Positions 44,965 to 52,112 of a stretch of DNA of 53,853 bases are shown piece by piece. Position 1 is the stretch's first letter, and each line of letters starts with the position of its first letter. A program made the position numbers and the translations under genes. This DNA comes from Acidimicrobiia bacterium (lineage in GTDB: Bacteria; Actinomycetota; Acidimicrobiia; Spongiisociales; Spongiisociaceae), in NCBI GenBank assembly GCA_011523395.1, contig WTGW01000205.1:1-53853 (forward strand), written 5' to 3'. The notes below the pieces were generated by a model, which saw only the letters and a program-made list of their open reading frames with translations, did not search any database and was not told the origin of the DNA.

Positions 44965-47900
44965 TTACTCGGTCGCGGCCGGGAGGACAGCCATCCAGCA
45001 GATGACGCCGACGTCGTCTTCTGTGATCTCCGCCAACGGCTCGGGCGGTGCCACCTCGCGCAGGCCGAACGAACGCACGACCTCAACGATCCGAGCGGCC
45101 GCCGCTGTCAGGGAGATCGCATCGTTGGTGAGGGCGCGACGGACGGCGCCGAGGGCTGATCGGACGGTTCGGCTCCGATCCACCGAGAGGGCCTCGTAGG
45201 CTGTCTCGGCGCCTTCGGGCAACAGCGCGGCCGGGTCACGTAGCACTTCGAGCGCCCAACGCTGGATCGGGCCCACCGGGACCGGATCACCCGCCGACGC
45301 AGCGCGCTCGTTGTGCTCTTCGACGATCGAGGTGACGGCTGCCTGCCAGGTGCGTTCTAGGTCGATGGATGGTTGCTCTACGTTGGGGGCGTTCCCAGGG
45401 TCGATTCGCCGCAGGATCGCGCCCGGGGCATTCTCCACTCCGGCGTCAGTCTCGACATATCGCCAGTACTTGTGGCCGGACTTGGTGCGGCAGGCGAAGA
45501 ACACCCCCGGAGGGCCTGTGGAGGGAATGCCATCCCCTTGGCGGAAGGCCGCGCCGAGTCCCCAAGGAAGCCGTCGCAGTCTCTCCACCTCGCCCTCTTC
45601 GAAGGCCCGCCGCAGCCGTGACCGGATCTGCTCGGGGCTCAGACCCTGTGGTGCGCCGTCGTGGCCGCTCTCGTCGAGGAGTGAGGGGTCACCATCGGTG
45701 AGGCGGCGAGCATAAGCGCGGATCTCTCGTTCTTCCTCGCCTTCGATCACTTGGATCTCCATCCCGAAGGTACGGGCTGCCTTTACTTTGCGGCGGATAG
45801 CGGCCTCGAGCCGCAACATCTCCTCTAGGTCGCCCGGTTCGGGCAGCATCGTGGTCAGATACACCTGCTCGTGGTCGCTCTTCAACCGTATGACACGTCC
45901 GTATCTCTGGACGACCCGCTGCGGATTCCAGGGCATGTCGTAGCTGATGACGGCGGCCGCCTGTTGGAGGTTCTGACCCTCGGACAGCACGTCGTTACTT
46001 AGTAGCAGGTCGACTTCGCCATCTTCGGGTTCGTAGTCAGGCCGAACCACCGTCCTGGGACAGAACCGGGCTAGCAGTTCGGTTCGTTCGTCAGGGTTGG
46101 TTTCCGCGCCGATCACGGTTACACGTTGTCGACCGCCGAGTTGCCGCGGGAGGTGTTCGTCGAGATATCGCACGGTATCGGCGAAGGTCGAGAACACGAT
46201 GACCTTCTGTGAAGGGTTTGCCTCGATCAGGGAACGAAGCAGGCCGAGTTTGGGGTCATGGTCAGGATCGAGCCGGGTGAGCAACGTAACCAACCGTGCC
46301 AGGAGCCGTCTGTCGTGTGACACGTGATCCCGGAATGGAGGCTCGAACGCCTCCACTGGTTCGATCCCCTCTTCCTCGGGGTTCTCCATGAGCCACTGAG
46401 CCAGGCCGGTCTCATCGAGTTCCTGCTGTGCAGCCGCTTTCAAGGCATCGCCGCACAGCACATGACCTTCGTCCCAGGCGGCGAGGAAGGCGTCGTGGGC
46501 TGCCAGCATCCTCCCCAGCGTGAGCAAGCACGCCTGCCAGCATGACTCGAAACGCTTCAGGATTGCCGACTGCAACAGGGCGCTCAGCGTCTCCTCGTGG
46601 ACTACTGCCTCATCCCCGATCCGGAAGGCGCTGGGCCGGTACCGGGCCATGGTCAGGTCGTCGATAGCGACCACGACTTCCAGCACGAGGTCGGGGTGTG
46701 CCTCGTCGAGGTCGTACCGTTCGGTGGTCAGAGTCGGTGTGGGGAACCTCACGGGGGTCCCGTCGGGGAATGCGGCGTCCGGGTAGTGGGTTTCGATGAA
46801 TCTACGGTCGCGGCGGACGCTCACCATGTCGGCCAGGGGGAACAGCACGTCAGGATCGAGGTTCTCAGGGTCCCGTTCGTTGGCACCCGCGGTCACGAAC
46901 AATCGCCGGAGGGATGGGATACCGTCGGCGGTGAAAGCGCGGTCGTGGAGGGCGAAGGTCATAACCAGGTGGTAGAGGTCCCACAAACCGTTGTTGACGG
47001 GAGTAGCGGTCAGCAGCACGAGGTCCTTGCGCTCGCCGCCCAGCAGCCGTGACATGGCTCTCTGCCAGGTGGTGTCGGGGTTACGCAGGGCATGGCCCTC
47101 GTCGACCACCACGAGCCGGTAGACGTCTTTGTTGATCGTCAGCCGTCTGGCACGGTTGATGGTGCCAGGCGGTGTCAGTTGCTCGTCGGTGGCGAGTTCG
47201 TGGTACGTGACCACGCGGGCAGGAAGGAGCGCCCGCTCTATCCGTTCCTGCCAGTGCTGGACCAACTGCCGCGGGGCGACCACCAAGGCATGGGTGCCTC
47301 GCCGACGGGTGTACTCCTCAATGAATGCCAGCCCGATCTCGGTCTTGCCGGTACCGACCCCATCCGCGTAGACCACTCCGTGCCGTCTGCGAACGATCTC
47401 CAATGCGCGGCGGAACCCGTCCCGCTGGAACGGTGCCAGATGGACCGTGGTGAGCGGCGGCACCGGCTCTTCGATCTCCTCGTCGAACAACTCCAGAAGC
47501 GCCCGGAGATAGACCGCCTGGGGGTCGATCATCCCGGGGTCGGGAAACAGCAGATCCCGTAACTCGGTCTTGAAGTCCGTCGCCTCGTCCCACAGGCGAT
47601 CGAACCATTCAACTGCGGTGCGTGCAACCAGCGGCGAGTAGTCGGCCAACCCCAGTTCGAGATTGCTGAACAGTCCTGCCGCGGTCAGGTTGGCGGATGT
47701 GACTAGTGCTGCCCGAGCGTCATTCGAGTCACCGAACATATAGGCCTTACCGTGAAGGAACCGCTCGGTATACCTTCGGACTTGTACCTCGGGCCGGTCG
47801 AGCCAACCATCGAGGTCTACGAGACATCGGGCAGCCCGGCTAGGCGGAAAGCGGGCTAGATCCCGATCCGCCCTCAGGAGCTCCAACGCGCGCTCGAAGT

Positions 47901-51900: not shown

Positions 51901-52112
51901 CGGCCCGGATCATCCGCGACCAGCAGATAGCTCACTGGCCTGTTGCCAACGCGCTCCCGCCACCGAGCCCGCATGCTGCGCTCAGACGGATCGAGCGCAA
52001 CCGCCACCTCGAAGCCCCGAACTACCACCACACCACCGGTACCGGCCCGCGTCGGCGCGGGCTTCCCAGTCCCGCGGGCCACCAGAAGGCGCAAAAGCTC
52101 CACGGCGTTCAC
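48969..52112 (-). CDS. Eco57I-like DNA adenine methyltransferase, truncated at a repeat tract
   Basis: A 1047-residue class I SAM-dependent N6-adenine methyltransferase. A large N-terminal region (1-500) has no clear motif. Then come 'GGVYYTPAELVQHLV' (about 518-532), SAM-binding DPACGSAHF (569-577) and catalytic NPPWEEV (814-820), after 'LHWPLAFPRVF'. It should modify an asymmetric DNA site in a restriction or DISARM/BREX-like setting. The chain ends in (Arg-Glu)n encoded by the microsatellite, without a proper recognition domain; that domain is encoded in another frame just downstream. GTG start. In this state the enzyme is probably inactive or altered. Confidence 0.92.
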   Translation of the reverse strand: MNAVELLRLLVARGTGKPAPTRAGTGGVVVVRGFEVAVALDPSERSMRARWRERVGNRPVSYLLVADDPGRAGWLRVLGPASADTPIRSVDAEALDRAIDETGEMGALDSVRHLAEEIVRLGGHGVHMEGLLSRHTVEVRFRENATMWADATAATSELRPSDEWRAILTKLGYTLEQLPTRGYLARHEDRPVAVVHPKNSARAFTRLDEQGRPPEGLLARDCRASGAPYGLLAYGGRFRLFDAASTQEWLDFDTHLLDHDRKPLLALLSPPYLSDNRLAELQVEAHRFGTELRERLDRTIRFDAFPALAGGLDRWIIDSGEDIEDDTQREHLEQAALTLMFRLLFILYAEGSGFLPMDNTTYWRKSLTGLVAEAAETEGNWTEGSTALWAQFTVLVQAMRSGNRAWDVPAYNGSLFAPTDFEGADLLERVELTDPHFARLLLAVGWDNSGNRGIDYSSLEIGHLGHIYEALLSLRLSVADRPLRYDRKQDRYVPDDSRPEIGVGELLWQTHEGGRKAGGVYYTPAELVQHLVRGAVVPTFERHLETVRATAETDPDAAVRELFTFSVLDPACGSAHFLVQVVETLADMTVRFLAETPLPGISTDLARLRAGTSAGGGVDDAALLRRLILKHCVFGVDVSPMGAEIALMSLWLASFVPGLSLSYLDRNVIVGDSLLGVASPETVGKVGTIWYDHLLDALGDAITAVARLADIDDRTPEEVEASKVADTEAWAATERAHQLFDLWVAEGFGLDTRRYVDTHALDVISGDADTHGRYLIRAASQLGKEHRFLHWPLAFPRVFDPSRERPGFDVVVGNPPWEEVTVEELAFYVMHRPGINGLPATIRGRAIQDLIRDRPELPGLLAEERDRVALQREALAAGEYEAMAGDPDLYKYFCQRYRQLSRQRGSIGVVLPRSAFINMGSRGFRGWLFRGVTTRRIDFLLNRRRWIFDTHPQYSVALVVAERTQPKEDHRVEIAGVAASREEWTQQSRGNGVRIASTGFGPGWMTPLVGTQPEADVLAKVRVGNLFAFGSDKREREREREREREQV
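48979..49015. repeat. (TC)18 / (GA)18 dinucleotide microsatellite
   Basis: Eighteen uninterrupted TC units plus one T, read as GA on the coding minus strand, encode (Arg-Glu)n at the end of the methyltransferase. Eighteen units lead to a TAG at 48971-48969. Seventeen units would join the frame of the downstream 261-residue ORF (total 1326 residues). Nineteen would read copy 1 of the 51-bp duplication and stop at 48839. This is the layout of a phase-variation switch. Confidence 0.9.

Follow-up and report, generated by a model that had tools for sequence, protein, structure and literature searches.

What does a short repeat near the end of a methyltransferase gene do when its length changes? 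The question is raised by contig WTGW01000205.1 of an Acidimicrobiia bacterium (assembly GCA_011523395.1). We refer to the whole analysed stretch of 53,853 nucleotides (nt) as the window; it is the whole of contig C211 in the genome assembly (3.1 Mb). On its minus strand a gene for an adenine methyltransferase (M) carries a tract of GA dinucleotides close to its 3' end and is followed by a target-recognition part (S) and by a nuclease-helicase fusion. Phase variation is usually read as on/off switching, whereas at this locus and in its relatives the "off" frames appear to carry a selected protein ending of their own. From the sequence we consider it probable that the locus is a phase-variable restriction-modification-like unit, in which the length of the repeat selects between a fused, a split but coupled, and an uncoupled arrangement of M and S.

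The GA tract and the junction between M and S

The features of the locus, with positions in the window, are as follows.

48969..52112, minus strand: M, the adenine methyltransferase open reading frame (ORF) as assembled, 1047 amino acids (aa), GTG start (ORF list; Pfam and PADLOC matches)
48979-49015, minus strand: (GA)18 tract near the 3' end of M, 18 full GA units, the proposed phase switch
48917..48964, minus strand: junction motif copy 1, VFPVTDLHETNDRHLW, in the open frame only when the tract has 16 or 19 units
48865..48912, minus strand: junction motif copy 2, GFPVRELDETQDRHLW, in the open frame when the tract has 17 or 20 units, and in frame with S
48839..48846, minus strand: overlap GTGAATAG, which holds the putative GTG start of S (48846-48844) and the TAG (48841-48839) that ends the 16/19-unit frame
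48130..48846, minus strand: S, the target-recognition part: the C-terminal portion of the fused gene, or a polypeptide of its own if translation starts at the GTG
44965..48129, minus strand: PLD(HKD)-SNF2-helicase_C fusion, 1054 aa (Pfam PLDc_2, SNF2-rel_dom, Helicase_C)

The ORFs and coordinates of the methyltransferase, the recognition ORF and the helicase agree with a preliminary description of the same DNA, and so does the contact between the last two, where the TGA of S directly abuts the helicase ATG at 48129. That description had counted three genes, a reading that we dropped. One and the same PADLOC type IIG profile (PDLC03620, 1378 positions) matches M at 274-1047 and S at 1198-1353 (1.6e-33 for S), in that order, and in close relatives such as L029 M and S are a single ORF. 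The recognition ORF, about 240 aa long and without a Pfam name, is therefore the C-terminal part of the methyltransferase gene. As read from the DNA, the unit is two genes, M(-S) and the helicase, with M and S one gene broken at the repeat.

The number of GA units was varied by script and the resulting frames were read. Tracts of 17 or 20 units join M and S in one ORF of 1326/1328 aa, with 16 or 19 units a third ending is reached about 40 aa further on, and with the assembled 18 units a TAG just 3' of the tract closes the M ORF at once. The contrast between 17 and 18 units that had been proposed at the outset is thereby confirmed. The tract is not a product of chance, since 100 shuffles of the window gave 0 such GA runs and no other run of (GA)7 or longer exists in the 3.1-Mb genome.

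Motif copies, repeats and overlaps in related loci

Related loci were scanned for the same junction. From 88 loci taken, 7 with too little upstream DNA and 6 duplicates were removed, leaving 75, where L158 was counted with L157 although their upstream repeats differ. Just upstream of S lies a short conserved motif, typically (F/V)RPVxELxATxDRHRF, which is present in two to five copies in different frames in 31 of the 75 loci and in one copy in 29, while 15 gave no match (in L082 and L095 an A-type motif below the scan threshold was seen by eye). Adjacent copies are always in different frames; their usual spacings are 68 or 74 and 65 nt, the spacing is 52 nt in the window and in L031, and no spacing is divisible by three.

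A tandem repeat lies shortly upstream of the first copy in all 31 multi-copy loci (30 by the automatic scan, with the 10-nt unit of L219 added by eye), the weakest being the C8 of L154. The units are GA/AG, CT/TC, poly-G, poly-C, GTCC/GACC, ACCA, ATCC/AACC, CAGC, CCGA, CGAGC, CAGCACC, AGGCCGAC and the 10-nt one, and their lengths of 1, 2, 4, 5, 7, 8 or 10 nt are never a multiple of three. Of the 29 single-copy loci only L090 (7-nt unit) and L030 (G10), 2 in all, carry a repeat, which gives a Fisher p of 5e-15 when kinship is ignored. The G10 of L030 (L030:4844-4853) follows the single motif copy and stands between motif and S, where 9 or 12 G would fuse M-S. This locus is instructive, since extra motif copies would be superfluous for a switch that lies behind the motif. 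Close relatives differ in their units (CT in L157 and L211, CGAGC in L214, GTCC/GACC in L217), as would be the case if the repeat sequence were exchanged and the switch retained. In the tree of the helicases, five independent pairs that contrast in the trait of repeat and multiple copies show the same direction in most pairings and are never opposed.

Variation in tract length is seen directly between G350 and G382, two genomes with 98.8% identity across 10.7 kb. They differ by three indels in the stretch that runs from M through the helicase, each of them a change of repeat length (CT14/11, G11/9 and G12/11). The locus thus has the unstable frame-changing coding tract of a contingency locus, the natural length variation being that of two relatives and not of the window tract.

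If the additional motif copies encode protein, their peptides should be visible as a codon pattern in their own frames. Differences between nearest copy pairs were counted by codon position, each copy in its own frame, and fall at positions 1/2/3 as 19/13/61 for copy A (11 pairs; 61/93 third, p 2e-10 vs one third), 23/12/50 for copy B (9 pairs, fused ones excluded; 50/85 third, p 1e-6) and 36/19/60 for copy C (13 pairs; 60/115 third, p 2e-5). Copy 1 of the window, which is out of frame with S, differs from copy 1 of L031 by 4/2/9. Among the tabulated loci copy A is fused to S in L152 only. The pattern indicates that, in the relatives, selection maintains the alternative endings, each in its own frame.

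A further regularity concerns the start of S, where in 29 of the 31 multi-copy loci one of the frames has a stop that overlaps with the S start codon. In 26 of them the TGA of a motif frame lies on the S start as NTGA (18 ATGA, 6 GTGA, 2 TTGA), in L087 the overlap is TAATG, and the window and L031 have an 8-nt overlap, with a TAG 5 nt downstream of the start (GTGAATAG in the window, ATGGATAG at the same place in L031). Only 2 of 20 fused single-copy loci have an NTGA in the 20 codons that precede the S core, both 60 nt off. The S starts lie a few residues before a conserved (W/R)P(V/L)(Y/W)KG, and their Shine-Dalgarno pairing has a median of -6.4 compared with -3.0 for other NTGs in the same loci (p 9e-5; medians were used because outliers distort the control mean), with 17 of 30 S starts but 31% of the other NTGs at -5 or better. 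By sequence, an overlap architecture like that of M and S in type I systems is present, and separate products would be predicted from it.

A fused M-S is possible in one frame in 18 of the 31 multi-copy loci, and 12 of the 31 have no fused frame, L225 being assigned to neither group. Where M lies upstream in the available stretch (26 of the 31), the assembled phase is fused in 4, split with motif in 7, motif-less in 9 (the window included) and stopped earlier inside M in 6.

Some observations on tracts and copies stand beside these results. About 3.8-4.1 kb upstream of its helicase L223 has five motif copies, the last three nearly identical: the 65-nt unit, whose addition changes the frame by itself, has recently expanded there. 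In L157, L161, L211, L212, L222, L223 and L224 M is followed, upstream of the helicase, by two S ORFs in tandem, the first with a poly-G tract near its 3' end (G10-G12 in most), and the first S of L154 has (AG)10 in the same part; the poly-G suggests that specificity subunits may themselves be phase-variable. L157, L211, L212 and L214 have a second poly-G within the M core or immediately behind it, some 2.3-2.4 kb upstream of the helicase; it would act as an on/off switch of its own that precedes the one at the junction.

What the length of the repeat may select

Taken together these results suggest the following mechanism. The locus would be a two-gene defence unit. The M-S protein would mark DNA, and the HKD-nuclease/SNF2-translocase would cut DNA that is unmarked. 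Slippage of (GA)n at the M-S junction would shift the reading frame, so that 17 or 20 units give a single fused M-S protein. With 16 or 19 units M would end in its own motif copy with a stop that overlaps the S start, and S would be made by reinitiation as a separate, translationally coupled subunit. With 18 units M would lack the motif and the coupling, and this state is probably off. In the relatives two to five motif copies in different frames would complete M in the other frames, and there the repeat length would mainly set the joining of M to S and the ratio of S. The helicase, whose ATG touches the S stop, would follow S through the stop-start contact. The architecture, its recurrence, the changes of tract length, the frame-specific conservation and the overlaps are read from the sequence; translation of the frames, reinitiation, restriction and the part played by each form, fused or split, we infer.

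A more far-reaching version is put forward tentatively, as somewhat less probable than its opposite. Here the repeat would select the topology of the protein and not an off state, the junction peptide being multiplied into different frames (in many loci all three) to complete M, which would amount to a natural and reversible interconversion between a type I-like and a type IIG/BREX-like gene organisation (BREX, bacteriophage exclusion). A repeat that switches M-S between fused and split, or motif copies in several frames, had no match in the open-licence literature searched and may exist elsewhere, so this absence is weak evidence of novelty.

The strongest alternative is specificity switching, where the copies (QGD, AELH and RELD types) give M a different recognition or a different pairing with S, and where loci with two S genes choose between S1 and S2. 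It is the main rival because in the Helicobacter pylori type IIG enzymes Hpy99XIV/HpyAXVI, in the sections of the report cited here, a repeat in the 3' part changes the C-terminus and, with a duplicated piece of the target recognition domain (TRD), the specificity (PMC3936762). The copy types do remain distinct across genomes, and tandem S ORFs with a poly-G in the first are found in the seven loci named above. The window, however, has one S, and the single-copy fused relatives use each of the AELH, RELD and QGD types alone, so that each looks able to serve and the types look interchangeable. We regard this explanation as possible but rather unlikely.

Less likely again is a plain on/off switch, in which the fused frame alone is functional and tandem duplication has left the additional motif copies as harmless remnants. 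Repeat-driven on/off switching of methyltransferase genes is described as common in the cited sections of the same report (PMC3936762), and the assembled frame is motif-less in the window and in 9 of the 26 loci, the window included. On the other hand, the peptide is preserved even in copies that hardly ever join S (61 of the 93 differences in copy A are at third positions), 12 of 31 loci are without any fused frame, and the NTGA overlap at the S start recurs in 26 of 31. The preliminary description had proposed a compact restriction-like unit with phase-dependent effector expression; the compact, phase-dependent unit is supported, whereas plain on/off of the effector is not, given three endings in the window and alternative endings conserved in their own frames in relatives.

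Programmed ribosomal or transcriptional slippage at the repeat, by which one tract length would yield both products at once, appears very improbable. Long homopolymers can slip in transcription, and some of the tracts are long homopolymers (G10-14, C10-18); most of the units here are of 2-8 nt, however, which are not known to promote ribosomal slippage, and close genomes differ in tract length. Least credible of all is that the gene is a pseudogene in decay or that the repeat was misassembled: the window ORF is interrupted in the assembly, and short reads are poorly assembled across dinucleotide tracts, but S, the helicase and both motif copies are intact, independent genomes share the architecture with different repeats, and L031 is intact and fused with (AG)7.

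A number of points weigh against repeat-selected joining of M and S. In the codon-position test the copies were found by protein similarity, which favours copies that keep their peptide and inflates the signal, and nearest pairs are not a proper substitution model. The 15 of 75 loci without a motif match stand outside the contrast of 31 with 29, and the trait of repeat and multiple copies needs only 6 changes on the helicase tree, at least 5 of them forced; the sign test on independent pairs cannot drop below p = 0.06. Among the 31 multi-copy loci L217 and L225 have no stop-start overlap, and the single-copy locus L030 has no S start codon near its alternative stop. In the window itself the S start is a GTG with a weak Shine-Dalgarno pairing (-4.1) and one of the three frames is without motif. 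The repeat length in any one assembly is moreover a consensus.

If M and S are indeed joined by repeat length, this would tune the joining of M to its specificity part and probably also its ratio to a destructive nuclease. Methyltransferase genes that look broken in assemblies may then be working systems, and the combination of a repeat, shifted-frame motif copies and a stop-start overlap is a signature that can be searched for in other genomes.

Neighbouring genes and comparison with known systems

With an E value of up to 1e-60, relatives of the helicase occur in 10 of 138 genomes of the order and 32 of 395 of the class, in 17 of 22 and 12 of 51 genomes of two families, and also in named metagenome-assembled genomes of Acidimicrobiia, Solirubrobacteraceae, Chloroflexota, Gemmatimonadota and others. 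In 11 homologs H126, K128, N147 and E158, which we take to be the HKD residues as in BfiI-like nucleases, and the Walker/DExH residues are invariant. A second, related helicase elsewhere in the window's genome (G000:C197:34158-36338; L002, L042) has 33% identity to the PLD-SNF2 protein.

All of the 42 loci picked for their usable flanks have M(-S) together with the helicase, and these are the only genes that the loci generally share. In L035 (13601-14302) a RAMA-domain gene (E 9.5e-15) lies between S and helicase, and L033 has an ORF in the same place. Upstream of M the contig continues for 1.7 kb, which holds a DUF5677 gene and a GcvT-like one (the latter from our own ORF reading). Downstream of the helicase and a DUF222-HNH gene, two ORFs of 359 and 521 aa (window 41122-43763) have no Pfam, NCBIfam or PADLOC match. 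At the very contig end a heptanucleotide array, (GGGCAGT)7, occupies window 1-65, and a degenerate 7-nt array lies at 143-175.

M matches Pfam Eco57I (5.6e-15) and the PADLOC type IIG (2.1e-79) and DrmMI (3e-71) profiles. A whole M-S homolog had no match in the PDB by sequence. The AlphaFold model of an 898-aa M-S fragment, built with eight aligned sequences, has a mean predicted local distance difference test (pLDDT) score of only 64.8, and with this low-confidence model Foldseek ranks PglX/BrxX, CamA, M.BseCI, BpuSI and MmeI. The model fits an Eco57I/PglX-like fold and is too weak for placing the junction motif.

The conserved core is thus M(-S) and helicase only, which is not DISARM (defence island system associated with restriction-modification), BREX or a BREX-related system with DUF499; the neighbourhoods of the 42 loci showed no further conserved gene of such a system. 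DISARM is resembled by profile, in a DrmMI-like methyltransferase, an SNF2 helicase and a PLD domain. Here, however, PLD and SNF2 are fused, and DrmA/DrmB, whose absence had been pointed out at the start, were seen neither in the contig nor as conserved neighbours in the 42 loci; one MZB-domain protein is encoded elsewhere in the genome, on contig C21. The equivalog cut-offs were missed by DrmD (119 bits vs 610) and DrmC (28.6 vs 133), and DISARM was dropped for the partners missing at the locus and for these scores. BREX was dropped likewise, as the PglX models reached 25.9 and 22.9 bits vs cut-offs of 500 and 900, the PglZ match lies on another contig (C111) and there is no third conserved gene.

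The preliminary description had also called the system less described. This does not hold for the HKD-Snf2 fusion, since a PADLOC HKD+Snf2 model (C3a139) matches the window helicase at 3.9e-41 and the BREX-related Type-2 system, according to the sections cited, combines a DUF499 ATPase and DUF3780 with an HKD-nuclease/SNF2-helicase fusion and an N6-methyltransferase, and has been proposed to be restriction-modification-like (PMC12839542). Fusion effector and N6-methyltransferase are both found in the window. The DUF499 partner is not: there are 0 matches in the window's genome, and in G021 the matches lie over 100 kb from either helicase, and this candidate was dropped as well.

Repeats in methyltransferase genes are known in several forms, described here from the cited sections of each report. 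The type III Mod M.MmyCI has an AG dinucleotide tract of which one phase terminates, and those sections mention neither a split of S nor motif copies (PMC3498834), while in H. canadensis 3' repeats switch C-termini (PMC2823697). Nearest among type IIG enzymes are Hpy99XIV/HpyAXVI, which likewise have a 3' repeat in a fused methyltransferase gene that alters the C-terminus; there, however, the second switch adds a C-terminal domain and alters specificity, and neither a split S nor multi-frame motif copies are described in the part cited (PMC3936762). As for membership of type IIG itself, the profile matches M-S in the fused phase, and Pfam names no nuclease domain in M, whose N-terminal 500 aa got no further analysis.

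The closest parallel for the split form is type I. In EcoKI the M and S genes naturally overlap and are translationally coupled (PMC3510504; PMC6158711), and removal of the frameshift gave an engineered M-S fusion that is functional in vivo (PMC3510504), as the cited sections report, so that both topologies are plausible enzymes. The likeness lies in separate M and S with overlapping, coupled frames that a frame change fuses. Unlike in the engineered EcoKI fusion, the frame change here is apparently natural, reversible and brought about by a repeat. Unlike in type I, there are several copies of the junction motif in different frames, S amounts to one short unit (about 240 aa) that matches the C-terminal part of the IIG profile and is not a two-TRD HsdS, and the partner is PLD(HKD)-SNF2 and not HsdR. 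The locus may in this way offer a natural test case for the evolutionary interconversion of type I (M+S) and fused type IIG/BREX-like enzymes.

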